This document shows, piece by piece, positions 1 to 13,934 of a stretch of DNA of 64,000 nt. The DNA lies in assembly GCA_021404785.1 (NCBI GenBank), contig QWHH01000005.1:124001-188000 (forward strand), given 5' to 3'. Numbering within the stretch: the stretch's first letter is position 1; the number at the start of each line of letters is the position of its first letter. Made by a program: the position numbers and the translations under genes. This DNA comes from Lysobacterales bacterium PRO7. Its GTDB lineage: Bacteria; Pseudomonadota; Gammaproteobacteria; Xanthomonadales; Rhodanobacteraceae. Under the pieces are notes generated by a model, which was not told the origin of the DNA, did no database searches, and saw only the letters and a list, made by a program, of their open reading frames with translations.

Positions 1-2997
1 GCGAACGAGCATCGGCTGCCGTCCGCGCGTCCGGCCAAGGTCGCGCTGGATGACGAAATTTCGGTCGGCAAGATGCTCACCGCGATCGAAGAAGGCGCAT
101 TCGACGATGCGGAGCTCACGCGCCTGCGCAAGGAGTGGCAGCTCGCCGGCGGCAAGACGCCCGTGCTCGGCATCACCGGCACCGGCGGCGCGGGCAAATC
201 CAGTGTCGTCGATGAATTGGTGCTGCGCTTCCTGCACGCCTTCCCGCACATGCGCATCGCCGTGCTCGCGGTCGATCCTACCAGACGTCGCTCGGGTGGC
301 GCATTGTTGGGCGACCGCATCCGCATGAACTCGCTGCGCAGCCATCGCGTCTATATGCGCTCGATGGCCACGCGCCGCCAGCACGCGGCAACCAGCATCG
401 TGCTCAAGGATTGCATCGGTTTCCTGAAAGGGCAGGGCTATGACCTCGTCATCGTCGAGACCGCCGGCATTGGTCAGTCTGATTCGGAGATCGTCGACCT
501 GGTCGATTTCCCGATGTACGTGATGACCAGCGATTACGGTGCGGCCTCGCAGCTGGAGAAGATCGACATGCTCGACTTCGCCGATCTCGTGGTGCTGAAC
601 AAGTTCGACCGCCGCGGCGCCGAAGACGCCCTGCGCGACGTGCGCAAGCAGTGGCGGCGCAACCGCGTCGCGTTCAAATTGCCGGACGAGCAGGTACCGG
701 TGTATCCCACCATCGCCAGCCAGTTCAACGATCCGGGCGTGACCTGGATGTTCGCGAACCTGTGCCGCCTGCTGCGCGAGAAGCTGCACCTGGACGAGTC
801 GAAATGGACGCCGCAAGTCGATACGACATTGAAGGAACCGCGCGCCACCGTGCTGATTCCCGGCGCCCGCGTGCGTTATCTGGCCGAGATCGCCGAGCAG
901 GGCCGCGGCATCAATTCGTCCATCGGCAAGCAGGCCGAAGCCGCGAACCGCGCGCAGAGTTTCTGGGAAGCGCTGCGCGAGATCGGCGACACCAAGCTGC
1001 ACCGCGAACTGGATTTGTATGATGCGGCGGATTTGAGCGGCGTCGACCGCTCGCTGATTACCCTGCGCCAACGCTACAACGATGCGGTGAAATCGCTGTC
1101 GTCCGAGGCGATCCACCTGCTGCGCGAGTGGCCGGCGCGGCTGAAATCCATCACCGATCCGCATTACCTGTACGAAGTGCGCGGCAAGCCCGTCGAGGGC
1201 GACAACTACGTCGAATCGCTGTCGCACCAGAAGGTGCCGAAGATCGCCGCGCCCACGTACACGAGCTGGGGCGAGCTGCTCACCTTCCTGATGAAAGAGA
1301 ATTTACCGGGTGCGTATCCCTACACCGGCGGCATCTATCCCTACCGCCGCACCGGCGAGGATCCGCTGCGCATGTTCGCGGGCGAGGGCACGCCCGAGCG
1401 CACGAACCGGCGTTTCCACTACCTGTCGCAGGGACAAAAGGCCACGCGCCTGTCCACCGCGTTCGATTCGGTCACGCTCTACGGCGAAGACCCGCATCCG
1501 CGCCCGGACATCTACGGCAAGATCGGCAACTCCGGCGTCAACATCCCGACCCTGGACGACATGAAGAAGCTGTATTCCGGCTTCGACCTGTCCTCGCCGA
1601 CGACGTCGGTGTCGATGACGATCAATGGGCCCGCGCCGATCATCCTCGCCATGTTCATGAACACGGCGATCGATCAGAACGTCGAGAAGTATCTGCGCGA
1701 AGACCAGAAACGCTGGGATGCCGCGCACGCGAAGATCGAAAAACTCTATGCGGGCAAGAAACGCCCCATGTATTCGGGTCCGCTGCCGGACGGCAACGAC
1801 GGCCTCGGCCTCGGCCTGCTCGGCGTCACCGGCGACCAGCTCGTCGATGCGGAAACGTACGCGAAGATCAAGGCAGCGACGCTGTCGGCCGTGCGCGGCA
1901 CCGTCCAAGCCGACATCCTGAAAGAGGACCAGGCGCAGAACACCTGCATCTTCTCCACCGAATTCGCGCTGCGCATGATGGGCGACATCCAGCAGTATTT
2001 CGTCGACCACAAGGTGCGCAATTTCTACTCCGTGTCGATCTCGGGTTACCACATCGCCGAGGCCGGCGCGAATCCGATCTCGCAGCTCGCGTTCACGCTG
2101 AGTAACGGTTTTACGATTGTCGAGTACTACCTTGCGCGCGGGATGAACATCGACGACTTCGCGCCGAACCTGTCGTTCTTCTTCAGCAACGGCATGGACC
2201 CGGAATACTCCGTCATCGGCCGTGTCGCGCGGCGCATCTGGGCGCGCGCCATGCGCGAGCGCTACGGCGCGTCGCCGCGCAGCCAGATGATGAAGTACCA
2301 CATCCAGACGTCCGGGCGTTCGCTGCACGCGCAGGAAATCCAGTTCAACGACATCCGCACCACGCTGCAGGCCTTGTACGCGCTGTTCGACAACTGCAAC
2401 TCGCTGCACACGAATGCCTACGACGAGGCGATTACCACGCCGACTGAGGAATCCGTGCGCCGCGCCGTGGCGATCCAGCTGATCATCAACCGCGAGCTGG
2501 GCCTGAACTTCTGCGAGAACCCGTGGCAGGGCAGCTTCATCATCGACAAGCTCACCGACATCGTCGAAGAAGCCGTGTACAAGGAATTCGAGGCGATCAG
2601 CGAGCGCGGCGGCGTGCTCGGAGCGATGGACACCATGTACCAGCGCGGCAAGATCCAGGAAGAATCGCTGTACTACGAACACAAGAAGCACGACGGCAGC
2701 CTGCCGCTGATCGGCGTCAACACCTTCCTGCCGAAGGAACACGCCGGCGAAACTGCGACGACGATCGAACTGATCCGCTCGACCGAAGAAGAAAAGGGCC
2801 AGCAGATCGCCAATGTCGAAGCCTTCCGCGCCAACCGCAATTCACTGGCGCCGGAAAGCCTAAAGGTGCTGCAACAGACCGCGCGCGACCGCAAGAACGT
2901 GTTCGCGCAGCTGATGGAAGCGGTGAAGTACAACAGCGAAGGGCAGATCAGCCACGCGTTGTACGATGTGGGCGGGGAGTATCGGAGGAATATGTAG
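1..2997 (+). CDS. icmF: Fused acyl-CoA mutase with GTPase chaperone (IcmF), 5' end outside window
   Basis: The frame is already open at base 1 and stops at TAG 2995-2997, so about 998 residues of a protein of roughly 1,100 are visible. A P-loop GTPase comes first (GTGGAGKSS near visible residue 60, NKFD near 200), then a linker, then the TIM-barrel mutase domain ([13 protein letters not shown] near 437 is the typical acyl-CoA mutase entry motif). The N-terminal cobalamin-binding domain of IcmF must lie to the left of the window. The family interconverts isobutyryl-CoA and n-butyryl-CoA with adenosylcobalamin, and the GTPase part loads and repairs the cofactor; substrate range cannot be read here. 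The C-terminus ([12 protein letters not shown]) resembles a short fragment at 10,291-10,341. It faces a lower-GC cassette on the opposite strand. Confidence 0.93.
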
Positions 2998-3076
2998 CCG
3001 ACTACGCTGCTGCGTACTTCGGGAATTCTTGCTTAGCTAGTGCTTTATCGAAGACGGCGTGCTGGTGTGGCCGAGC

Positions 3077-3820
3077 TTAGAGTTTATTAGCGTAGTTGCA
3101 ATGGTGCAGTAGTTCTTCTGCCGCAATTCTAAATCCGTGCTTGATTTCGTCGACATCGGTAAGCTGAGCCGTGAAACGCTGGTTGTGAGCGCTTTGGTCA
3201 CCAAATTTCTTTAGCGCTGCTAGTGATTTCTTTGTTTCTCGGGTGATGTTAATCGCATTGTCTGAGGAAATTTTCCCAGACAGATCTTCAAGCGGGAGGA
3301 AGGCTCCGTCGGCCCGCTTGATCTCTGCTGAACGTCCGTTTTGCGCGTAGACCTCAATGACTAGCGTCTCGAGCAACTTGCGCCCAAGTACCATCACTCC
3401 GTCGAAATACCCGTTTTGATAGCACCCATTTACTTGATCTATGAGCCTGAGTAAGTAGCCACGTCTGGCCGGTTCAAAAATCGCACGCGGGACTACCTCC
3501 AGAGTGCTATGAATCTTTGGCGCAGAAGGTGACGCGAGTAGGTTTTGGTACTGCTGGGTCAGGGCTTTTAACGCGTTAGGCTTGAGACGGAATCCCTCGC
3601 CATATTTCGCAGTTCTACGATCGCTGCGAAGTTGTTGGGACAGTCTGTTGATATTCTGCTGAGGATGCCCACAGTCGTTCTCAACTATGGAGGCGATTTC
3701 CTTTGCCGTCATGCCTTCAATTCTGTTGACAACCTTTCCAAGCCAAAGCATGGCGACAGCCCGATCAATGGAACTTATCCGATTTTCGCTGATGGCGAGA
3801 TCAAAGGCTTGGTATTCCAT
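3077..3820 (-). CDS. Winged-helix plus HEPN/DUF4145-like protein of unknown function
   Basis: 247 residues with an ATG start at 3820, preceded by AGGA at 8 nt. I do not recognise a named family. Residues about 20-95 read like a winged helix (helices around MTAKEIASIV and NINRLSQQLR, then a G-rich wing before LKPNALKAL). Residues about 125-245 read like a helical HEPN/DUF4145-type domain (LGRKLLETLVIEVY, then GDQSAHNQRF, then DVDEIKHGFRIAAEELLH). Some members of that fold occur in abortive-infection proteins, but the usual arginine of the catalytic RxxxxH motif is not obvious here. It starts 10 nt after the stop of the 212-residue gene upstream, so the two are probably one operon. Codon use and base composition are clearly more AT-rich than in the neighbours, suggesting transfer. 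Confidence 0.75.
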   Translation of the reverse strand: MEYQAFDLAISENRISSIDRAVAMLWLGKVVNRIEGMTAKEIASIVENDCGHPQQNINRLSQQLRSDRRTAKYGEGFRLKPNALKALTQQYQNLLASPSAPKIHSTLEVVPRAIFEPARRGYLLRLIDQVNGCYQNGYFDGVMVLGRKLLETLVIEVYAQNGRSAEIKRADGAFLPLEDLSGKISSDNAINITRETKKSLAALKKFGDQSAHNQRFTAQLTDVDEIKHGFRIAAEELLHHCNYANKL

Positions 3821-3830
3821 TTATTAATTC

Positions 3831-4469
3831 CTACTTGCCAGATTTCCACTCGGTCCAATTCTTCAAGCAAAAACACCTTGCGAACTGTTTGGCTTTCGTG
3901 AATTTTGCGGGGTTCAGAATGATCTGTCCTCCGGCGCGCGGTTGGAGCCATTCAGAACGTCGTATCCCACGAGCGCTGTTGGAGTCGCGGACATTTATCG
4001 ATCGGAGTACTGCCTGTGCCTGTGCTTGCGTAGCGTTTGCTTGTCCATTGCTGGTTTTAAACCATAGCGCGAGTAACGTTGCAGCCGCTGCCGCCGGCGC
4101 TACTGCGGATGGTCCGCGATCTCCAAGTTGAGTCTTAAAAGCTTCCCAGCATGTATGGTCCAGGATCAAGAAGGGCTCGTCGTGTTTAGGGTCGCATGCC
4201 GCTTGTAACTCTTCGGTACTGACTCCGATTTCTGTGGCGAACTTTCCCAGAGGATCTCTTGAGGCAGGCTTTTTCGCCAATGATTCGTCCTCCTCGTCCT
4301 CGGTTTCGCCTTCATCGCTCTCAGGCTTTATTTCAATTTTTCCAAACGCGGCTGGATTTCCATTGATCACACCAAGTACCTTCTGCCAGAGCTGTGGATC
4401 TTCGGACTCAGCTACGACAACTTTTTCAGCGTAAAGCACTACTTTGAGTGAAGCCTTTAGACTGCTCAC
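3831..4469 (-). CDS. Unknown protein, first gene of AT-rich two-gene cassette
   Basis: 212 residues from a GTG at 4467-4469, which has GAAAGGAAA just upstream. A longer in-frame ATG at 4526 is rejected because it would overlap the -35 box of the promoter seen at 4498-4526. An acidic patch (EGETEDEEDES) lies near residue 55-65. A hydrophobic stretch (VAPAAAAATLLALWF, about residue 125-140) could be a membrane segment or a buried helix. The C-terminal 65 residues look like a small helical, possibly winged-helix domain (SARGIRRSEWLQ, then GGQIILNPAKFTKAKQFA). No catalytic motif is visible and no function is claimed. It is probably co-transcribed with the winged-helix/HEPN-like gene. Confidence 0.7.
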   Translation of the reverse strand: MSSLKASLKVVLYAEKVVVAESEDPQLWQKVLGVINGNPAAFGKIEIKPESDEGETEDEEDESLAKKPASRDPLGKFATEIGVSTEELQAACDPKHDEPFLILDHTCWEAFKTQLGDRGPSAVAPAAAAATLLALWFKTSNGQANATQAQAQAVLRSINVRDSNSARGIRRSEWLQPRAGGQIILNPAKFTKAKQFARCFCLKNWTEWKSGK

Positions 4470-4497
4470 GTAGGTTTCCTTTCTAGGACGTACTCGA

Positions 4498-4526
4498 AGT
4501 AAATCACAATGAATTAGAGGTGTCAA
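4498..4526 (-). promoter_or_regulatory. Sigma70-like promoter of the AT-rich cassette
   Basis: On the minus strand TTGACA (4521-4526) is followed after exactly 17 bp by TTTACT (4498-4503). The -35 box is perfect and the -10 matches four of six consensus bases. The start codon at 4469 lies 28 nt after the -10 box. An 8-bp inverted repeat (TAGGACGT 4484-4491 and ACGTCCTA 4542-4549) flanks the promoter, and CCTACGTAGG at 4546-4555 is a perfect 10-bp palindrome, so a regulator may act here. Confidence 0.6.
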
Positions 4527-4560
4527 ATAGTGACTTCATTAACGTCCTACGTAGGTGAAC

Positions 4561-4583
4561 GTCAAAAAAGGTGTCCGACCCCG
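4561..4583 (-). repeat. Degenerate dispersed tag (GGGGTCGGACACCTTTT)
   Basis: Read on the minus strand this is a diverged member of the GGGTCAGAGTACACTTT tag family seen also at 5288, 5351, 6010, 7481, 13935 and 17147. It lies between the AT-rich cassette and the next gene. It is the weakest match of the set. Confidence 0.4.
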
Positions 4584-4661
4584 TTAATTTGATAGATTGT
4601 GCGGGCACGCTGCTCGCCGTGGTTTCGGAGCTCGGCTTCATTCACAGGACCCGCAGAACCC

Positions 4662-5288
4662 ATGCTGTCCGAACTCCCACGCGCCATCCTCGAAATCGGT
4701 TTGCCGGTAGCGGTGCTGAGCTGGCTGCTGTTCTACCGGCTGTACAGTCGCGGCGAGCTCGCGCGCGACGCGGACCGCAAGGCGATCGGCGCGAGCCTCA
4801 AGTCGATCCGCAAGGCGCAGAAGGAATCCAAGCAATCGTCGGACAGCCTGCTGCACGCGAAATGGATGAAATTCGGCGGCGGCTTCTACGGCGTGGCCGC
4901 GGCCTGGACGCTGCTCTACATCGAAGCGAGCGGCGTCATCGGCGTCATTGCCCACCCCTCGACCGTGCAGGACATGTTCCGCAACGGCATCGGCGGTTTC
5001 ATCGCCCAACAGATATCCGGCCAGGTCAGTACCTTCGTCGATGCCGTGACCTGGTTCAACTGGTGGCCGGGCAGGGGCCATAACCCCATCGTGTGGTTCG
5101 GTGTGGCCTATGCCGCCTACATCGCCGGACTCGAGCTCGCGCGCTTCGAGACCCGTATCGGCAGCCGCGCCGTCGAACTCGATTCGCGCGAACGCTGGGC
5201 TTCCATGGTGCCGTTCCGCAAAGACAGCGCATCGGCACCCAAGGAAGAAGAAGCGGCACGACCGGGTGAAGCAGACGAAATAAAATAG
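4662..5288 (+). CDS. Hypothetical inner-membrane protein
   Basis: 208 residues from ATG 4662; upstream in-frame codons are possible but lack a good ribosome site. An N-terminal hydrophobic segment (residues about 8-24) is followed by a basic, coiled-coil-like stretch rich in K, R, S and E (about 28-60). Two further hydrophobic stretches follow, around FYGVAAAWTLLYI and IVWFGVAYAAYIAGL. The C-terminus is charged and probably cytoplasmic. No known domain is recognised. The gene is bounded on both sides by copies of the dispersed tag (4561 and 5288), which suggests an accessory acquisition. Confidence 0.7.
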   Translation: MLSELPRAILEIGLPVAVLSWLLFYRLYSRGELARDADRKAIGASLKSIRKAQKESKQSSDSLLHAKWMKFGGGFYGVAAAWTLLYIEASGVIGVIAHPSTVQDMFRNGIGGFIAQQISGQVSTFVDAVTWFNWWPGRGHNPIVWFGVAYAAYIAGLELARFETRIGSRAVELDSRERWASMVPFRKDSASAPKEEEAARPGEADEIK

Positions 5289-5310
5289 GGGTCAAAGTGC
5301 CATTTCCGGC
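5288..5310 (+). repeat. Dispersed tag (GGGGTCAAAGTGCCATTTCC)
   Basis: Member of the GGGTCAG-n-GTACACTTT family. It starts on the last base of the stop codon of the preceding membrane-protein gene. Confidence 0.5.
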
Positions 5311-5350
5311 AAAAGCAAACGCGGAAGACAGTGATTAGCAAAAAGCAGTG

Positions 5351-5370
5351 CTCAGGGTACACTTTTCAGC
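5351..5370 (+). repeat. Dispersed tag (CTCAGGGTACACTTTTC)
   Basis: Second tag in the same gap, closer to the family core (CAGGGTACACTTT). It lies 57 nt before the likely TTG start of the 188-residue gene. Confidence 0.5.
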
Positions 5371-5426
5371 ATTAGCGCTGGCTGACACCCGAAAATCCAC
5401 CTGATCCTGATTTTTCTCCATTTTTC

Positions 5427-5993
5427 TTGCATGACAATCGGAGACGTGTCCTGAGCACGAGACGTATTCCATGGAGGCTCCTGCGCGAGGTGCTGGCCGT
5501 CATCGGCGTCATTGGTTCGATGGCGTTTGTCGGATGGCAGGTCCGGGAAAGCAACCGGCAGGCGCGCGCCGCTGCGTATCAGGCGATCGGCATCGCGACG
5601 TCGGAATTCCATCGTTCGTTCGACGCGCATCTCAATCGTTTGGCGACGGAATCGGACTACCCGGAAGCCGTCAAGCGCTGGTCGCTTGCCGATTGGGAAG
5701 CGTCCGAGCGGATCACGATTGCCGACCTGCGCATGCTCGAGACCGTGCTGCTGGAGGTCGACCAGGGCCAGCTGCCCGAGGACGCGGTCAAGCGGCTCGG
5801 CTACAACTGGGGACCGGCGCTCGCCAGTCCGGCTTTCGCGTGCATGTGGCCCGATCTGAAGCCAGGCGTCGGCGAGTCGCTGCGGCGCTACATCGAAGAG
5901 ACCTCGCCGCCCGACAAGCGCTTCGCCTGCGAGGTCGATCTCAAGGCTTTGCGCGATGCGACCGTCCTCCACCGTGGCGCAACCGGAGGATGA
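5427..5993 (+). CDS. Hypothetical membrane-anchored protein
   Basis: About 188 residues if the TTG at 5427 is used; no ATG occurs in frame before the membrane segment, so the start is uncertain. After a basic N-terminus one transmembrane helix is visible (LREVLAVIGVIGSMAFVGW, residues about 18-37), followed by QVRESNRQARAAAYQA. The pattern of one N-terminal helix followed by a glutamine/arginine-rich stretch recurs in many small uncharacterised proteobacterial proteins. The rest is soluble and has no recognised catalytic motif. Dispersed tags at 5351 and 6010 bracket the gene. Confidence 0.6.
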   Translation: MHDNRRRVLSTRRIPWRLLREVLAVIGVIGSMAFVGWQVRESNRQARAAAYQAIGIATSEFHRSFDAHLNRLATESDYPEAVKRWSLADWEASERITIADLRMLETVLLEVDQGQLPEDAVKRLGYNWGPALASPAFACMWPDLKPGVGESLRRYIEETSPPDKRFACEVDLKALRDATVLHRGATGG

Positions 5994-6009
5994 CTTGCCG
6001 GGAAAAACC

Positions 6010-6030
6010 GGAGTCAGAGTACACTTTCTC
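6010..6030 (+). repeat. Dispersed tag (GGAGTCAGAGTACACTTTC)
   Basis: The copy closest to the core of the family, between the 188-residue gene and the 3' end of the LamG gene. With the inverted copy at 7481 it brackets the LamG gene. Confidence 0.6.
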
Positions 6031-6099
6031 GCAAATCAGGCGCCGTCTAAACTCTGGCGTATCCATAATCCGCCGTCACAGCCACCGCATCTTTCCTGC

Positions 6100-7395
6100 T
6101 CAGTTCCACGTGGGATCGGTCGTGGTGGGACACCCGCAGCCAACAGTGCTGTAGTTGACATGGCCTGCGGCCGCGCCGCCGAATCGCCAGACCGCACATG
6201 CCGTGCCGGTGCGCGCGGGATTGACGTAGACGTTGTTGGTCGTTCCGGAACCGCAGACGGCCTCATAGGAATTGGCCGGGAAACTTCCACCGGGCCACGC
6301 GGCGGCCGCTGCTTCCGCCTGCGTCAGGCTGATGGTTCCGGGCGCGATATAGTCTTCGAACGTCTGGCCGAGCGTCCAGCCGCTGCACGCCGCGCCGATG
6401 CAATTGGTGTGGACCGTATCGAAATTCGCCGTGACGGACGTGGCGGCGCGCATGACGACAGTGCACGGCCCAGGACCGCTGCAGGCACTACTCGTCCAGG
6501 CCACAAATGCGCTGTTCGCGCCGGGTGTGGCCGTGAGCTGAACTACCGAATCGAGCGGCAAATCGGCGCTGCAGGTCGTGCCGCAGTTGATGCCCGCCGG
6601 ATTGCTGGTCACCGTTCCGGGAACGCTGCCCGACACCGAAGCCGTGAGGGTCGCGTAATCCCCGTAACCGTTGCGAAACAGCACGTCCTTGCAGATTCCG
6701 GCCGGGCCCGCGGCGACCAGCGTGGCAATTTCCGATTGCGACAACGCGCGGTCGTACACCTCGACCTCGTCGATCAACCCGTTGAAGGCATTGCCGGATA
6801 CGATGTTGCGGCCGATCTTCGCGTCGGCGGCGATCGCCGTCAGCGGCCGCGGCAGGTTGAGCGTGAGTTCGAGGTTGCCATTGAAATACAGCGTTGCCTG
6901 GTAGCCGTCGAAGGTGGCCGCCACGTGCGTCCACTGTCCCGTCGCCAGCTTGTGGGCCGACACCAGCGTATTCAGGCCCGTGGTGGTGTAAAAGTTCCAC
7001 TCCACCAGGCCCGTGCCGTTGCCGTCGATGTTCAATTGAATGCCGGTCGTATTCGTGGCCGGGCGCCAGTCGAAGATCGAAGCGCCGGCGACGAACGCGG
7101 TCGGGTTCACCCAGGCATCGATCGTGACGGCCTGCGGCGTTGCGACCGCGCTGTAGGGAATGTCGACGGAGCCCGCGCTCGGGAAACTGAAGGCTTGCAG
7201 CACTTTGCCGGAAGCGTAGGTCGCCGCGCCGGACAAGGTACCGTCGTTGCCCGCGGCGATATCCTTCGCATCGCCGTCGCCGGGCCACCAGCCGGTCAAC
7301 GAGGGAGGCGGCTGCACGCAGACCTGGGCGAATGCCGGTGCGGCGATTGCGAACAGGACGATGGCGTGGAGAGACTTGCCGAGTGGTCGTTTCAT
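6100..7395 (-). CDS. Exported LamG (concanavalin A-like) protein with bacterial repeat domain
   Basis: 431 residues from ATG 7395, which has GGAGG 5 nt upstream. A signal peptide is clear (MKRPLGKSLHAIVLF, cleavage after AFA). Residues about 30-225 form a LamG/concanavalin A-like jelly roll (GWWPGDGDAKD, IDAWVNPT, WTHVAATFDG, ATLYFNGN, FNGLIDEVEVYDRALS). Next comes VLFRNGYGD, which resembles the C-terminal tail of two other exported proteins in this window but is internal here. Residues about 250-330 match the InlB-B-like bacterial repeat pattern (VTSNPAGINCG, LTATPG, FVAWT, VTANF). The cysteine-containing C-terminus is unrecognised. It is probably surface or extracellular and may bind glycans; no catalytic residues are visible. 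Confidence 0.85.
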   Translation of the reverse strand: MKRPLGKSLHAIVLFAIAAPAFAQVCVQPPPSLTGWWPGDGDAKDIAAGNDGTLSGAATYASGKVLQAFSFPSAGSVDIPYSAVATPQAVTIDAWVNPTAFVAGASIFDWRPATNTTGIQLNIDGNGTGLVEWNFYTTTGLNTLVSAHKLATGQWTHVAATFDGYQATLYFNGNLELTLNLPRPLTAIAADAKIGRNIVSGNAFNGLIDEVEVYDRALSQSEIATLVAAGPAGICKDVLFRNGYGDYATLTASVSGSVPGTVTSNPAGINCGTTCSADLPLDSVVQLTATPGANSAFVAWTSSACSGPGPCTVVMRAATSVTANFDTVHTNCIGAACSGWTLGQTFEDYIAPGTISLTQAEAAAAAWPGGSFPANSYEAVCGSGTTNNVYVNPARTGTACAVWRFGGAAAGHVNYSTVGCGCPTTTDPTWN

Positions 7396-7480
7396 CCATC
7401 CCTCCGCAGACTGCAACGAAGGAGTACGCGCGCCACCGGCAGCGCGTGAATCGCGCCACGACATGCTCATATCGACTCCC

Positions 7481-7503
7481 CGTGTTGACCTGACCCCTTT
7501 CCC
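7481..7503 (-). repeat. Dispersed tag, inverted orientation (AAAGGGGTCAGGTCAACACG)
   Basis: Upstream of the LamG gene and in the opposite orientation to the copy at 6010, so the two copies flank that gene as inverted repeats. Confidence 0.5.
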
Positions 7504-7568
7504 GCACGCCTAGTCTACGTGAAACGAGGAGCCTTCGTGTGGGGGAGCGATGTGCGCTTTCTGGCGCC

Positions 7569-8651
7569 TCACGCGCCTTCGAAATGCGCCGTCGTGCCTC
7601 GCGCCCGCACCGCGCGCGGATCCATGATCCGTCGCCACAGCGGCGGCACCAGCGCCAGCACGAACATCGTCGCGTAGCCTGCCGGCAGCTGCGGACTGTC
7701 GTCGTGATGCTGCAGCAGCTGATAGCGGCGCCGGGCATTGGCGTGGTGATCGGAATGGCGCTGCAGGTTGAACAGCAGCCAGTTGCCGACACGCTGCGGC
7801 GCGTTCCAGGAATGCAGATGCGTCACGCGCTCGTAGCGGCCGGGCGTGACCGCGCGGCGCTCGAGGCCGTAGTGCTCGACGTAGTTGATGATTTCCAGCG
7901 TGCTCGCCGCGGCGAGTCCCTGGGCGACGAAGAACAGCGCACCCGCCACGCCCAGCCACAGCGCGAACGCGGCGAGCAGCACGAGCCACAGGGCGGTCCA
8001 GCGCAGCATCTCGTTGTCGAGCGACCATACGCGCCGCCCGCCTTGTCGCAGGCGTTGCGCTTCCAGGCGCCAGGCATTGCGCACGTTGTCGCGCAGCGCG
8101 CGCGGCACGAAGGCGTAGACCGATTCGCCGAAGCGGGCCGACGAGGAATCGGCGGGCGTGGCAACATTCACGTGATGCCCGCGCACGTGTTCGATCTTGA
8201 AGCCGTGGTAGCCGACGCTGGTCAGCAGGAACCCGCCGCAGAACCGCTCCAGGCGGCTCGTCTTGTGCACGAGCTCGTGCGCCGGATTGATCGCGAGGAC
8301 GCCGCCGAGCACGCCGGTGGACACGATCCAGGCCAGCAGGCCGAACGGCCCGAGCGGCAGCCGCGTGAATTCCCAGGCGCAATAGACGAGGACGGCCGGC
8401 CAGACAAGCACCGTGAGCAGCGTGAGCGCGCGGAAATACCCGTGCCGTTCGATCGCGGCGTCGCCTGCATCGAGATTGGCGGTATCGATGCCGCACAAGA
8501 AGTCGATGACCGGCAGCGCGCCGAAAATCACCAGCAGCGGAAACGCCGCGCCCCCGGGCGCCGGCCAACCGGCCGCGATCAACGCGACGGCGCCGGCCGG
8601 AAGCAGGGCCAGGCCGAACGGCAGGAAGAAACCAAGATCGCGCCAACGCAT
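7569..8651 (-). CDS. alkB: AlkB-type membrane di-iron alkane 1-monooxygenase
   Basis: 360 residues from ATG 8651; the longer form from a GTG at 8708 has no better ribosome site. The histidine boxes of integral-membrane fatty-acid-desaturase-like hydroxylases are present in order: NPAHELVHK (about 145), EHVRGHHVNV (about 175), NYVEHYGL (about 275) and LQRHSDHHANARRRY (about 316), the last being the box typical of AlkB. Hydrophobic segments surround them. The family hydroxylates the terminal carbon of medium-chain alkanes using electrons from rubredoxin. No rubredoxin or rubredoxin reductase gene lies next to it, so its electron donor must be encoded elsewhere and its substrate is uncertain. 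Confidence 0.9.
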   Translation of the reverse strand: MRWRDLGFFLPFGLALLPAGAVALIAAGWPAPGGAAFPLLVIFGALPVIDFLCGIDTANLDAGDAAIERHGYFRALTLLTVLVWPAVLVYCAWEFTRLPLGPFGLLAWIVSTGVLGGVLAINPAHELVHKTSRLERFCGGFLLTSVGYHGFKIEHVRGHHVNVATPADSSSARFGESVYAFVPRALRDNVRNAWRLEAQRLRQGGRRVWSLDNEMLRWTALWLVLLAAFALWLGVAGALFFVAQGLAAASTLEIINYVEHYGLERRAVTPGRYERVTHLHSWNAPQRVGNWLLFNLQRHSDHHANARRRYQLLQHHDDSPQLPAGYATMFVLALVPPLWRRIMDPRAVRARGTTAHFEGA

Positions 8652-8776
8652 GAAATTAGTGTAGACCGGAATTGCCAGAATGGGGCGGATTCCGTCAATT
8701 CGACGCACGGCTGAATCGCCGGACTTTGGCGGCGCGGTTGTCGAGATCGCCTCTATTCGGTTACGCGCATATTCGA

Positions 8777-8818
8777 TTGAGCATTGAACGGGTCGGCTTC
8801 GACGGCGACGACGCGTTG
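8777..8818 (+). pseudogene. Short copy of the 5' end of the HAD hydrolase gene (copy a)
   Basis: About 40 bp matching the first 13 codons of the intact HAD gene at 11,055, with 6 differences. It starts at a TTG and reads MSIERVGFDGDDAL in the same frame. It then breaks off directly before the 3' end of the opposite-strand exported-protein gene. Confidence 0.65.
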
Positions 8819-8823
8819 ACGGG

Positions 8824-10107
8824 CTACGGCCCCTCGAAACCGTCGGCGAACAGTGGTGGCTCCAGGTTCTTGGTCAAGTCGAACACCAGGTACTCGAGCA
8901 GCTTTTCCTGCGGCGTCATGGCGCCTGCCGAGCATTCCGCCGGGAAAACCAGTGAAGTGGTGTTACCCGTGCTTTCCACATGGTAGTCCATGTACTGGAC
9001 GCGGCCGCACTGCTTGGTCGGTGCAGTGCCGACCGGCGTTCCGAACGAGTATTGAACCGACATGGTGCCGAAGTTGGCGTCGTTCACGCTGATCCACGAT
9101 TGCGATGGCGGGATCACTCCGTCGTAGTCGTGGCGCAGGAGTTGAAGCGGTATCTGTCCCTGAGTCGTGGTTGCCCCGACGAATTGCAACCATTGCGCCA
9201 GTTGCAGCCCGTCCGTGGTCGATTGATTGATGAAAGCCGTCTGATCGGCAGGTATTGGACTCTGCTGCACGTTCCATGATGCCGTTCCCGAGAACGGCGC
9301 GACGTTGTAAAGCCAGGTGTATTCATAGTGCGTGGCCATCACGCGGCCGCCGGCATTGGCGTAACCAATCAGATTTTGTTGTGCGAAGGGTGTTTGGGCG
9401 AATTGATTGGCCTGGCAGGCAAACATCACCATGTCGTAGGCGCCGAGCGTGGCTGTACTCGCCTCGAGCGCCGTTTCGGAAACGCTCCCGGACGCTTGCG
9501 CTCCCGCACTTCCGGCGCCGGTGAACAGATGGATGCGTCCCGTTCCGCTCGACGCGGAAACCTCCGCGTCGTCGATGCCCACCTTGCGGAAGATGCACTC
9601 CGCTGCGTCGCCGTTGCCGGTGACGACGGCGATTTGCGGGATATCGCCTTCGGTCTTGTTCCTCGGAAAGCGTGCCGCGTTGCTGGCTAACGCCGTGTTC
9701 GTGCATTGGGCGACGTTCGGGATGACGATCTGCCTGCGCCATTTTCCGGATTGGATGACCAGCGGGATATTCGCGCCCGCCGGCATGTTGGCCACGGTGA
9801 ACGATCCATCGATTCCCGTGATTGCCTGCACGAGCGGCGAGGTGGGCGGCGTTCCGCCGTTCCGGCAGCTCGCTCCCGCAGCGAATGCTGAAACGGGGGC
9901 ATTCGGAACGTACACCAACACACCCGGTAGCGGATCCACCCCGTTTGGCGCATAGACCCTGCCGCTGACTGTCGTCGTCACGGCGGGATTCGGACAAGTG
10001 ACTTGCTGCAGACACAAGCCCGTGCACGTTTGTGCAAGCGCAAGCATTGGTGCGAGCCCGAGCGGCAACGCGGCGGCACGCAAGAAAAATCTTGAGGCAT
10101 GGCGCAT
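8824..10107 (-). CDS. Exported protein with carboxypeptidase-regulatory-like domain and GFE tail
   Basis: 427 residues. The N-terminus is a signal peptide (MRHASRFFLRAAALPL, cleavage after ALA). Residues about 45-130 resemble a carboxypeptidase regulatory-like (transthyretin-fold) domain (VSGRVYAPNG, PLPGVLVYV, TGIDGSFTVANMPAG, IPLVIQSGKWRR). The middle has a Rossmann-like glutamine-amidotransferase/ThuA flavour (KTEGDIPQIAVVTGNGDAAEC, YDMVMFACQ, LIGYANAGGRVMATHYEYTW), but no catalytic triad can be assigned. The protein ends in LFADGFEGP, a tail resembling that of the beta-propeller protein at 12,869. It sits between two partial copies of the HAD gene start, which suggests it was inserted there. 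Confidence 0.75.
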   Translation of the reverse strand: MRHASRFFLRAAALPLGLAPMLALAQTCTGLCLQQVTCPNPAVTTTVSGRVYAPNGVDPLPGVLVYVPNAPVSAFAAGASCRNGGTPPTSPLVQAITGIDGSFTVANMPAGANIPLVIQSGKWRRQIVIPNVAQCTNTALASNAARFPRNKTEGDIPQIAVVTGNGDAAECIFRKVGIDDAEVSASSGTGRIHLFTGAGSAGAQASGSVSETALEASTATLGAYDMVMFACQANQFAQTPFAQQNLIGYANAGGRVMATHYEYTWLYNVAPFSGTASWNVQQSPIPADQTAFINQSTTDGLQLAQWLQFVGATTTQGQIPLQLLRHDYDGVIPPSQSWISVNDANFGTMSVQYSFGTPVGTAPTKQCGRVQYMDYHVESTGNTTSLVFPAECSAGAMTPQEKLLEYLVFDLTKNLEPPLFADGFEGP

Positions 10108-10197
10108 GGAATCCCCTAGAATTGGTAGTGCAGTACCCCTCCGCGAAGCATATCCCTTTCCGGCCCTGAATTCGCTTCCTCATGTAGGATGCGGGAA

Positions 10198-10335
10198 TGA
10201 ACATCGGACTGGTCGGCTTCGACGGTGACGACACGCTGTGGCACAGCGAGGGTTACTACCAGAACGCCGCCGCCGAGTTCGGACGCTGTCGATGCCGGCC
10301 ATACCTTGTACGATGCGAGTGGAGAGTATCGTAGG
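10198..10335 (+). pseudogene. Truncated HAD hydrolase 5' end joined to foreign sequence (copy b)
   Basis: From ATG 10198 the first 28 codons (MNIGLVGFDGDDTLWHSE and onward to AAAEF) are nearly identical to the intact HAD gene at 11,055, about 92% over 86 bp. The similarity stops near 10,284, after which the frame runs into unrelated sequence and ends at TAG 10333-10335. Several differences are synonymous, so this copy may once have belonged to a working gene. Confidence 0.75.
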
Positions 10336-10341
10336 AGCATG
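10291..10341 (+). pseudogene. Fragment resembling the 3' end of icmF
   Basis: In the frame of the following gene this reads LYDASGEYRRSM. That parallels [12 protein letters not shown], the last residues of the mutase at 1-2997, with roughly 79% nucleotide identity over about 43 bp. No other part of a mutase gene is present. It directly precedes the start of the nucleotidyltransferase-like gene, so it probably marks a recombination junction. Confidence 0.55.
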
Positions 10342-10347
10342 CAACCG

Positions 10348-10878
10348 ATGACGCGCCTCGTCGATCAAATCAAGGAAGCGTTGGCGGCATTCGCCAGTCT
10401 GCGAACGCAGCCGGCGTTGATCGGCGGGTTGGCGCTGGCAGCGCACCATGTCGTGCGTGCGACACAGGACGTCGATTTCCTGGCCGATGCTGCAGACGCA
10501 GAAAAGATCGACACGCTCCTGCGCGGCCTCGGTTATCGCTGCCTGCATCGCAGCGAGGACGCGGCCAACTACCTGCGCGGCGACGAGGGCATGGATTTCC
10601 TGTTCGCGCACCGTCCCGCTGCGGCGAATCTGCTCGGCAATGCCGAAGTGAAAGAGACCGGGCTTGGCCGTTTGCGTGTCGTGTCGGCGGAAGGCTTGAT
10701 CGGATTCAAGCTGCAGGCGTTCGTCAACAATCCAAAACGCACGCAGGACATTGAGGACATTCGTTCGCTGTTGCGCGTCAACGAACACTCGCTCAATATG
10801 GTGGAAGTGAAAGGTTACTTTGCCCTGTTCGGACGCGAGGCTCTGCTCGATGAAATCATCGCCGATCTCGACCGCTGA
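10348..10878 (+). CDS. Nucleotidyltransferase-like (AbiEii/MNT superfamily) protein
   Basis: 176 residues from ATG 10348, with AGGAG 10 nt upstream; ATG 10339 is an alternative but lies only 1 nt from that site. The pattern is that of the polymerase-beta-type nucleotidyltransferase fold: GGLALAAHHV (about 25-34), then a DVDFL metal-binding pair (about 42), then MDFLF (about 77). The C-terminal part (GLIGFKLQAFVNNPKRTQDIEDIRSLL) is the typical helical end of AbiEii-type and antitoxin-like nucleotidyltransferases. Some members of the superfamily act in toxin-antitoxin or abortive-infection systems, others in housekeeping, so the role is open. It overlaps a 64-residue gene that could be its partner. 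Confidence 0.75.
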   Translation: MTRLVDQIKEALAAFASLRTQPALIGGLALAAHHVVRATQDVDFLADAADAEKIDTLLRGLGYRCLHRSEDAANYLRGDEGMDFLFAHRPAAANLLGNAEVKETGLGRLRVVSAEGLIGFKLQAFVNNPKRTQDIEDIRSLLRVNEHSLNMVEVKGYFALFGREALLDEIIADLDR

Positions 10879-11044
10879 CGATTCACGACGCGGATTCTTC
10901 GTGCGCGAGGCCGGCATTGCGTATCGGCCTTCGTCCGCGCGCGATCCGATCGATGCATGGATTTCGTTGATGGAAGCCGTCGAAGCGCTGTGCCCGCGCT
11001 GGCCCGCGCGCGAGCACCGGCTGACGGGCGAATTCAAGTTGTGA
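10850..11044 (+). CDS. Small conserved-looking hypothetical protein
   Basis: 64 residues from ATG 10850, which overlaps the end of the nucleotidyltransferase-like gene by 29 nt and has GAGG about 9 nt upstream. The sequence (GFFVREAGIAYRPS, DPIDAWISLMEAVEALCPRWP, LTGEFKL) has a compact mixed strand/helix look and ends 10 nt before the HAD gene. I recognise no family. The overlap suggests translational coupling with the nucleotidyltransferase-like gene. Confidence 0.55.
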   Translation: MKSSPISTADDSRRGFFVREAGIAYRPSSARDPIDAWISLMEAVEALCPRWPAREHRLTGEFKL

Positions 11045-11054
11045 GCGGATCGGA

Positions 11055-11768
11055 GTGAGTATCGAATTGGTCGGCTTCGACGGCGACGACACGCTCTGGC
11101 ACAGCGAGGGTTACTACCAGAACGCCGCCGCCGAGTTCGAGCGCATCGTCGGTGCGTGGATCGACGTCCGCGACGCGCGCGTGCGCGAACGCCTGCATGC
11201 GGTCGAGCGCCGTAATCTGAAATTGTTCGGCTACGGCGCCAAGGGCATGACGCTGTCGATGGTCGAGGCGGCGATCGAACTGACCGACAGCCGCATCGGC
11301 GCGCAGGACATCCACCGCATCGTCGCGCTCGGCCGCCGCGTGCTCGAACATCCGGTCGAACTCTTGCCCGGCGTCCGCGCCGCGGTCGAAGCGGTCGCGC
11401 GCGACCATCGCGTCGTGCTGATCACCAAGGGCGACCTGTTCCACCAGGAAAGCAAGGTCGAGCGCAGCGGACTCGGCGATCTGTTCCATCGCATCGAGAT
11501 CGTGTCGGAGAAGAACGAGGCCAGCTACGCGCGCGTGCTCGACGAATTCCAGGTCGCCGCGCCCGCGTTCGCGATGATCGGCAACTCGCTGCGTTCGGAC
11601 ATCGAGCCGGTCATCGGCCTCGGCGGCTGGGGCATCCACATGCCGTATCACGTGACCTGGGCGCACGAACTCGAACACGGCATCGAAAGCGGCCATCCGC
11701 GCGTGATCGCGATCGGATCGGCCCCCGAAATCGCGGATGCGGTTGCGCGCTGCGGCCACGACACATGA
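11055..11768 (+). CDS. HAD-superfamily phosphatase-like hydrolase
   Basis: 237 residues from a GTG at 11055. All four HAD motifs are visible: FDGDDT with nucleophile D9 and acid D11; LITKGD with T124; a lysine in SEKNEASY near 153; and GNSLRSDIEP with D182. A helical cap lies between motifs I and II (about 15-100). This is therefore a type I HAD fold with a C1 helical cap, likely acting on a small phosphorylated substrate or acyl halide that cannot be named. Two truncated copies of its 5' end lie upstream at 8,777 and 10,198, each followed by unrelated DNA. This is the only complete copy. Confidence 0.88.
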   Translation: MSIELVGFDGDDTLWHSEGYYQNAAAEFERIVGAWIDVRDARVRERLHAVERRNLKLFGYGAKGMTLSMVEAAIELTDSRIGAQDIHRIVALGRRVLEHPVELLPGVRAAVEAVARDHRVVLITKGDLFHQESKVERSGLGDLFHRIEIVSEKNEASYARVLDEFQVAAPAFAMIGNSLRSDIEPVIGLGGWGIHMPYHVTWAHELEHGIESGHPRVIAIGSAPEIADAVARCGHDT

Positions 11769-11788: not shown

Positions 11789-11942
11789 ATGCGCAAGACA
11801 TCAACCCAATCGTCATCGGCAGGGAAACTCACCCCCGAAGAACGCGCCGCCATGAAGGCGCGCCGACCGCTTTCGCGCTGACAAACTGACCGCTGCCGAG
11901 CAGACGCGAATCGCCGCGCTGGTCGGGAAGGCGGTCGGTTAG
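11789..11942 (+). pseudogene. Small gene split by a frameshift
   Basis: A strong ribosome site (GGAG, 8 nt) precedes ATG 11789. The first frame reads LTPEERAAMKAR and then meets a TGA at 11879-11881. In a neighbouring frame the sequence continues convincingly as DRFRADKLTAAEQTRIAALV up to TAG 11940-11942. One added or lost base around 11,861-11,866 explains both halves, which together would give a lysine/alanine-rich helical protein of about 50 residues. A sequencing error or programmed shift is possible. The family is not recognised. Confidence 0.5.
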
Positions 11943-12868: not shown

Positions 12869-13846
12869 CTATTCGAAGCCGGTACGAAACAGGCAATAAC
12901 TCGTCGTCTGGCCTTCGCCGCATGCGTAGGCCTGGGAAGTCGCGACTCCCCAGGAGACGCGCTGAAGCGGTGCGGCGAAATTGATGTCGATGACCGGCGA
13001 TGCGTTGCCGTTCTGCGTGCGCGGAAAACCGAAGACGGCGTCGGGTATCGAGCTGGAACGGTACTGGTTGCCGACGAGCAGGATGCCGTCCCGGCGCAGC
13101 GCAAGGCCCGCCGTCTGCGTCAGTCCCGAGGTTGTGCCGTCAATGGTTCGCAGTGCGGCGCCGCTGCGATCGAAGGCGCGGACGTAGCCCGTTCCGGTCG
13201 CGAGGAAGACCTCGTTGGCGCGTGCATCGACGACCAGACCGAATGGATTGGTCGAGTTGGTGAAAAGTCGCGATGGCGCCGCATCGCCATTGGCCATGCG
13301 ATCGAACACGACGACACTGCCGCCATAGTTGACGGCGTAAAGCTCGTTGTTGACGCGGTCGACGAAAAGCCCGACGACGTTGCCCAGGGTGGTCTGGTCG
13401 CCCTGGATGGTGCGCAGCGGCGCGGGACTGCCATTGCCGGTACGCGCAAAGACGAAAATGCCGCCTCCTCCGGGCGTCCCCACGTAGACTTCATCGGCTT
13501 CGACGTCGACGGCGATGCTCGTCGCAAACAGGCCGGGTGCGGTGATCGTGCGCAGCGGAGCAACGTCGCCGTTCGCGCGCGCCGGAAAGACCCGAACCGT
13601 GCTCTGGGTCGTCACCCACAATTCGCCGTGCAGGTTGTCGAGGGCGATCGCGTAGCATTCGGCAACACCCGCGGTCGGTCCGGTAATCGTTCGAATGGGC
13701 GATGAGCCCAGCCCAGCGTCATCAGCGAAAACACCGATCGAGTCACCGGCGCAGACGTAGGTATCGGCGAGCGCGTTGGTTGCGCTCAAGGAGAGAAAAA
13801 TCACAAGCAGGAAATGGGGAAATCGGAAGACCGACGCCGAATTCAT
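12869..13846 (-). CDS. Exported beta-propeller-like protein with GFE tail
   Basis: 325 residues from ATG 13846 (GGAG 6 nt upstream). The signal peptide spans MNSASVFRFPHFLLV to NALA. The mature part is a run of about 40-residue repeats of the type RTI-G-tt----aiaVD---nE-yVa----sv-vF, for instance NELYAVNYGGSVVVFDR and NEVFLATGTGYVRAFDR. This is typical of an NHL/YVTN-like propeller. The C-terminus is CLFRTGFE, close to LFADGFE of the protein at 8,824. It is probably periplasmic or secreted, and no enzyme motif is visible. Confidence 0.8.
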   Translation of the reverse strand: MNSASVFRFPHFLLVIFLSLSATNALADTYVCAGDSIGVFADDAGLGSSPIRTITGPTAGVAECYAIALDNLHGELWVTTQSTVRVFPARANGDVAPLRTITAPGLFATSIAVDVEADEVYVGTPGGGGIFVFARTGNGSPAPLRTIQGDQTTLGNVVGLFVDRVNNELYAVNYGGSVVVFDRMANGDAAPSRLFTNSTNPFGLVVDARANEVFLATGTGYVRAFDRSGAALRTIDGTTSGLTQTAGLALRRDGILLVGNQYRSSSIPDAVFGFPRTQNGNASPVIDINFAAPLQRVSWGVATSQAYACGEGQTTSYCLFRTGFE

Positions 13847-13934
13847 GATTTTCTCCCGCTGCAAATTACCTGCTCATACAATTGCCGCGTAAGGGCACAG
13901 TAGCACGAAATGCGTGGTGTTGACCGGGAAAACA

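Follow-up and report, generated by a model that had tools for sequence, protein, structure and literature searches.

Stubs of two edge genes at an accessory-gene locus downstream of icmF suggest integrase-free gene turnover by one-sided recombination

Integrative elements sit at the 5' or 3' ends of genes, as SXT does in prfC, and direct repeats of a gene end flanking inserts are a hallmark of site-specific integration. Here we describe repeated gene ends in a 64,000-nucleotide stretch of Lysobacterales bacterium PRO7 (contig QWHH01000005.1, positions 124,001 to 188,000 of the forward strand; hereafter the window), where an intact gene for a HAD hydrolase is preceded by two truncated copies of its 5' end, one of which is followed by a truncated 3' end of icmF, the gene at the left edge of the locus. 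Many gene-transfer hotspots are without mobile elements, and the route by which genes enter them is debated. PMC5635113 likewise reports many hotspots without mobile elements and finds that flanking core genes recombine more, while PMC5361080 proposes homology-facilitated illegitimate recombination, with sequential displacement, for the immunity-gene arrays of the type VI secretion system (T6SS) of Vibrio cholerae. The abstract of PMC3240628 also describes a one-sided recombination process.

We propose, with a rough probability of 0.58, that the region downstream of icmF is an integrase-free gene-turnover locus shaped by one-sided homologous plus illegitimate joining, and that the HAD stubs are the right ends of former versions of this locus.

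Stubs of the HAD and icmF genes

The argument depends on the following features, given in window coordinates.

73-2997, plus strand: icmF (fused B12-dependent mutase), left edge of the locus, with intact 3' end (open reading frame, ORF; 3' end matches the icmF profile at 2920-2996)
8777-8818, plus strand: HAD 5' stub 1, about 40 bp, starting with TTG (blastn and profiles)
10197-10285, plus strand: HAD 5' stub 2, about 86 bp, starting with ATG (blastn and profiles)
10297-10343, plus strand: icmF 3'-end stub, in register up to the former stop codon (profile and alignment)
10197-10334, plus strand: 45-codon open frame, HAD 5' stub 2 plus the icmF stub in another frame (translation)
10339-10878, plus strand: nucleotidyltransferase-like gene (NT), AbiEii / NTP_transf_5 type
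10820-11044, plus strand: small gene, family unnamed (listed ORF of 74 aa; likely start ATG 10,850 by eye)
11055-11768, plus strand: intact HAD hydrolase gene, 237 aa, former right edge of the locus (PF00702, E 2.4e-10)

An initial annotation, made from the sequence alone, had described three co-oriented copies of the HAD 5' end, each at a possible start codon, and both blastn and profile searches bear this out. The copies begin with TTG at 8,777, ATG at 10,197 and GTG at 11,055; the outer two positions are as first given, and the middle one, placed at 10,198, has its actual ATG one base earlier. In a whole-genome blastn search the HAD gene matches the 10,197 copy at 92% over 88 bp (E 5.9e-30, 128 bits) and the 8,777 copy at 85% over 41 bp (E 6.2e-6, 48 bits). 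The blocks behind the two stubs were also correctly described, as a minus-strand exported-type gene (8,824-10,107) and NT with the small gene. A search for the same fragment elsewhere in the window's own genome (G000; 2.81 Mb, 19 contigs, with the window on contig C8) yielded no further outstanding copy, the next of the 44 blastn matches reaching 38 bits against 128 and 48. Chance and protein-level convergence, the latter foreseen in the annotation as a possible objection, are rejected, since the copies resemble one another at the DNA level well beyond what the rest of the genome shows.

A profile of 81 other HAD 5' ends, run over 1.58 Mb, finds the 10,197 copy at E 4.9e-21 and the 8,777 copy at E 1.1e-4. 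With a full-length HAD profile, run over 11.1 kb, the matches have E values of 1.1e-21 and 2.2e-5 and end at positions 83 and 35, respectively, and no later HAD parts are detected behind either stub at a convincing level. The regions upstream of the start codons are not convincingly homologous, with anchored 20-bp scores of 0 or -2 versus 14 for a true relative, genome G012. The scores against the window's own HAD over 20, 30 and 45 bp upstream are reached by just 6 to 58 of 500 shuffles, and there may be at most a trace of homology in these regions. A fourth, weak HAD match (13,485-13,511, E 0.32), which falls within another gene and has its equivalent in G012 at E 0.18, was treated as chance.

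An assembly artefact is unlikely because the stubs diverge from their parents, with 7 of 84 sites differing from HAD in the 10,197 stub, 6 of 39 in the 8,777 stub, and 8 of 39 sites differing from icmF in the icmF stub. The HAD genes of G000 and G012 differ at 16 of 115 fourfold sites, and icmF divergence amounts to 47 of 220 fourfold sites (0.21). Measured against the HAD figure, the 10,197 stub may be about as old as the G000/G012 split or younger, its sites being too few for finer dating. All seven differences of this stub from HAD fall within its first 45 bp, leaving the following 41 bp identical (Fisher p 0.013), a clustering that could possibly reflect a later exchange with the intact gene.

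The icmF stub behind the 10,197 copy had been overlooked in the initial annotation. A 78-position profile built from 22 other icmF 3' ends matches 10,297-10,343 at E 1.8e-5 over profile positions 31-77, and 31 of 39 sites are identical to the window's own icmF. In plain whole-genome blastn this match does not rise above background, and the evidence for it is therefore the profile together with its position. About 12 bp separate HAD 5' stub 2 from the icmF stub, and the HAD-start/icmF-end join is a head-to-tail junction between the two edges of the locus. We take the ORF at 73-2997 to be icmF from the domains of a related ORF in genome G201 (locus L254; B12-binding, MeaB and MM_CoA_mutase).

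In the window, icmF and NT are now 7.3 kb apart, and what immediately precedes NT is the join of HAD start and icmF end. Of 234 family genomes, 24 contain NT; the icmF end lies -5 to 116 bp ahead of the first aligned NT codon in 11 of them (at -5 in five genomes), and the small gene adjoins NT in most related loci. This proximity suggests that icmF-NT-small is an old order in the family and that the window's NT probably once stood behind icmF.

Two other genomes drew attention in this connection. In G006 (locus L117, 6,860-6,906) a weak icmF-like stretch (E 0.83) immediately precedes NT, with no icmF in the fetched stretch; a ParE fragment suspected by eye ahead of it has no Pfam match at E 1 and was dropped. 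An icmF remnant suspected by eye before NT in G014 is not found by the profile and is not claimed.

The locus in related genomes

The cargo of the locus differs in all four genomes seen with icmF and the TrmY-like gene (at 13,910 in the window) on one contig, namely G000, G012, G014 and G001, and the span between these two genes varies, from 10.9 kb in the window to 6.1 kb in G014, about 4.9 kb in G012 and 4.1 kb in G001. The G014 cargo comprises NT, the small gene, a SnoaL-like gene, a desaturase, a DUF1801-like gene, PspC and PadR; the desaturase lies to the right of NT-small in G014 and to the left of NT in the window. The names DoxX and DNA glycosylase, given by eye to two G014 ORFs, were not used as evidence. 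In G012, a methyltransferase-like protein of 797 residues, matched weakly by PADLOC and not by Pfam, ends where the last 32 NT codons start, and the small gene and HAD follow; this fusion point is a join at a different position. The small gene-HAD join is common to G000 and G012 (90% over 954 bp) and is therefore not younger than their split.

HAD is present in 2 of 17 genomes of the genus (E 1e-20; several of these genomes are incomplete), its 5' end is matched in 170 of the 234 family genomes (E 0.001), and it lies within the fetched stretch in none of 11 icmF-NT-small loci checked. The second-copy search took in 124 sequences including the window, 108 of them with a primary HAD match, and 90 distinct HAD sequences besides the window's. 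The comparison of related loci suggested in the initial annotation shows that inserts do differ between genomes and that a second HAD 5' copy at E < 0.1 is absent among the 123 other fetched loci (best secondary match outside the window, E 0.18). When each of 27 HAD-bearing loci was checked with its own HAD 5' end, there was again no second copy, only short matches of up to 25 bp.

Stubs of icmF do occur elsewhere. A survey of 15 larger regions out of 14 genomes, by icmF profile and by comparison with each region's own DNA, found second icmF 3' ends downstream of NT-small in three of them, from G201, G230 and G237, in all of which full-length icmF is also matched. The G201 stub measures 380 bp, with 85.8% identity to its own icmF; G230 has one of 370 bp at 85.4% plus a third icmF end of 52 bp; and that of G237 is about 106 bp long, consisting of about 42 bp plus 64 bp past the stop. 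Part of the second icmF end of G237 (locus L256, 7,375-7,491) also matches in inverted orientation.

The longer stubs permit a test of ancestry. The G201 stub shares 90.3% identity with the icmF of G192 as against 85.8% with its own, and a tree holding it together with its own icmF costs 16.2 log units (approximately unbiased (AU) test, p 0.009, tested after the tree had been seen). Moreover, third codon positions account for 42 of its 54 differences from its own icmF (binomial test against one third, p 3e-11), an excess that implies two working genes diverged before they met, and its closeness to the icmF of another species favours foreign DNA over a copy made on the spot. Taken together, these comparisons point to an origin of the G201 stub from foreign DNA and not from local duplication. 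For the G230 stub, third positions also prevail among the differences from its own icmF (35 of 53), and its base composition is unusual. The stubs of G201 and G230 begin at nearly the same icmF codon and may represent one old event, with later gene conversion in G230.

No integrase family was found among the seven window ORFs scanned by Pfam, and there is no PF00589 match on C8 or on contig C171 of G014, in agreement with the initial remark that no integrase is visible. The five tyrosine-integrase-family matches of G000 are on contigs C1, C2, C13 and C16, and G012 has one PF00589 match, on C33, at the contig edge and more than 50 kb away from HAD. In G201, a genome outside the PF00589 search, there is an rve-type (IS-like) gene about 3.8 kb beyond the stub. 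HAD, NT, the small gene and the exported gene have no match among PHROGs phage families, and the three plasmid records that match do so in the HAD part only, at about 65%. Searches for promoters and terminators gave nothing beyond shuffles. DprA, considered as a sign of competence, was found in all three genomes searched and also in the E. coli control, and is uninformative.

The remaining genes of the locus in the window are these.

3077-3820, minus strand: weak DUF4145 gene, accessory, between icmF and the desaturase
3831-4526 (minus), 4599-5288 (plus) and 5427-5993 (plus strand): accessory genes without a Pfam match
6100-7470, minus strand: Laminin_G_3/concanavalin-like gene, accessory
7569-8708, minus strand: fatty-acid desaturase gene (PF00487, E 1.7e-31; 90% match in locus L115)
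8824-10107, minus strand: exported-type gene, no Pfam match
11789-11942, plus strand: DUF1801-like gene remnant that retains both ends and lacks the middle (alignment to G014)

Positions 4658-5229 match sequence 3' of icmF in G001 and G015. The exported-type gene has a partial paralogue at G000:C3:112858 (68% DNA identity over part), and the longer DUF1801-like gene at the corresponding place in G014 has a PF08818 match just under the cut-off.

Defence-type genes were seen in two of the related loci. Directly behind its 380-bp icmF stub, G201 (L254, 7,090-9,576) encodes a SIR2_2-nSTAND protein with no PADLOC match, which is possibly a defence gene, and G192 (locus L257, 10,002-11,902) carries a Thoeris pair (ThsA E 6e-190, ThsB E 1e-62) shortly downstream of icmF-NT-small. 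A broader proposal would make the position behind icmF a family-wide, integrase-free stacking site for defence-type loads, with AbiEii-like NT, Thoeris, SIR2-STAND and methyltransferase-like genes as its cargo types. Every new load would enter immediately behind icmF and displace older ones behind icmF stubs, leaving in the genome a legible history of past loads, kept in the window also on the HAD side, where one HAD stub may have turned into a translated leader of the following load; we consider this extension doubtful.

Proposed one-sided joining and competing explanations

In the process that we favour, incoming DNA would recombine homologously within an edge gene on one side and join illegitimately on the other, swapping the cargo. 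A fragment anchored in icmF would add its load directly behind icmF, and its far end would be joined at an arbitrary point of the recipient. A join falling within the 3' end of the recipient's icmF would leave a short icmF stub before the old cargo; one falling further on would cut the old load, as in G012; and an incoming fragment ending inside HAD would bring a HAD 5' stub with it. In the window, a fragment running from icmF through the exported gene to the HAD start would have been joined to a recipient in the order icmF end, NT, small gene and HAD, and the product would read icmF, cargo, HAD 5' stub, icmF 3' stub, NT, small gene and HAD. We infer that the 8,777 stub arose earlier from a join of the same kind, behind the desaturase gene. 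On this view HAD followed a different gene in every former version, which would explain why the similarity among its copies sets in at the start codon.

Several observations fit this process. On the homologous side, icmF is open to 2,997 and HAD is intact at 11,055; on the illegitimate side, joins lie at varying positions, about -47, -51 and -380 in icmF, and within NT in G012. Of the accounts that explain at once the head-to-tail join, the intactness of the edge genes, the variation in stub edges and the foreign ancestry of the G201 stub, one-sided recombination is the simplest. It also retains the outline of the initial proposal of repeated integration leaving copies behind, in that successive gains of accessory genes left gene ends; the part of that proposal that made the HAD 5' end the target of an integrating element is not supported.

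A number of points weigh on the other side. According to PMC5361080, experiments detect one-sided recombination rarely, at levels several orders of magnitude lower than those of normal recombination. The postulated arrangements desaturase-HAD or exported gene-HAD are not in any genome seen. The primary icmF end stands alone in 11 of the 15 regions surveyed and locus L268 has no icmF end, while the icmF-like stretch of G006 is weak (E 0.83). Foreign origin of insert and anchor is supported for G201 (AU p 0.009) and not for G230, whose stub is sister to its own icmF (99/99) despite sharing nearly the same left edge with the G201 stub; the stubs of the window are too short for an ancestry test. 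Finally, the differences of the 10,197 stub are spread evenly across codon positions (2, 2, 3), and among the sites that distinguish the HAD genes of G000 and G012 the stub has the G000 base at 4 and the G012 base at 2, a pattern that fits local duplication equally well.

The main rival for the window, whose stubs are too short for their ancestry to be tested, is tandem duplication followed by loss in one lineage. Already raised, with decay, in the initial annotation, it would have the segment from the icmF 3' end to the HAD 5' end duplicated and the cargo of the first copy later deleted and replaced. Such a duplication would yield exactly the head-to-tail HAD/icmF junction observed, and it would accommodate the swapped order of desaturase and NT-small between G014 and the window, which involves no inversion, as well as the leaning of the 10,197 stub sites to the window's own HAD and the sister relationship of the G230 stub to its own icmF. 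However, the left neighbours of the three HAD copies differ, so that the duplicated cargo would also need replacing; there is no convincing NT or small-gene remnant in 2,998-10,290; and the G201 stub is not the sister of its own icmF, from which it differs mainly at third codon positions. We regard duplication as a lesser but serious possibility for the window. Decay in place of full HAD paralogues at 8,777 and 10,197 is highly improbable: the DUF1801 remnant at 11,789 shows that internal deletions occur here, but neither stub is followed by a HAD 3' part, the 10,197 stub continues into icmF sequence, and the upstream regions appear unrelated.

Site-specific integration, at an attachment site formed by either the 5' end of HAD or the 3' end of icmF and by an integrase since lost, would explain the direct repeats of gene ends around the inserts, the similar size of the shorter icmF stubs (47 bp in the window, 52 bp in G230) and the edge shared by the long stubs of G201 and G230. 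It is very unlikely in view of stub lengths that range from about 40 to about 86 bp for HAD and from about 47 to about 380 bp for icmF, the absence of a tyrosine-integrase match on C8, and the absence of a second HAD 5' copy at E < 0.1 in the 90 other distinct HADs. Neither an integrase nor a constant attachment-site repeat is found at the locus, and site-specific insertion into HAD, to which the differing left neighbours are also opposed, is unsupported. The stop of the 45-codon frame ends 4 bp ahead of the NT ATG at 10,339, and the frame could act as a coupled translated leader of NT. That the 10,197 stub was retained for this purpose would agree with the open frame and its ending; it is scarcely credible as the explanation of the stubs, given that it leaves the 8,777 copy unexplained and that a consensus scan, limited to that kind of signal, found no sigma-70-like promoter in 8,650-11,150 (0 versus 0.7 in shuffles).

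Comparison with described systems

One-sided joining at the icmF locus would bear on how genes enter hotspots that are without mobile elements. Stubs of edge genes record which end of a fragment joined illegitimately, and sequence comparison can therefore separate double recombination from one-sided joining; perhaps the stubs also give the order of arrivals. Should icmF stubs turn out to be frequent, successive loads, several of them defence-type, would have left a natural record at this locus. A search of the isobutyryl-CoA/methylmalonyl-CoA mutase literature found no paper that treats the icmF locus as a hotspot, and we claim nothing wider.

The locus shares with integrative elements such as SXT the direct repeats of gene ends that flank inserted DNA, and differs from them in that no integrase was found in it and its stub lengths vary. 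It resembles the integrase-less hotspots of PMC5635113 in its high gene turnover between conserved genes without a recognised mobile element: the cargo varies between conserved genes in G000, G012, G014 and G001, and the locus has no integrase. The model in that paper is double homologous recombination, which we would expect to be stub-free, whereas the stubs here imply one illegitimate end.

The closest parallel is with the T6SS effector-immunity arrays of V. cholerae, as set out in PMC5361080. In both cases the proposed process has a homology anchor on one side and an illegitimate join on the other, new cargo is added while old parts remain, and repeated rounds give arrays of leftovers. V. 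cholerae keeps whole orphan immunity genes, whereas the window keeps short ends of the two edge genes, and the cargo here consists of NT-small, desaturase and exported-type genes, with defence-like genes in relatives. We therefore read the window as a further case of a known process, one whose record is unusually clear.

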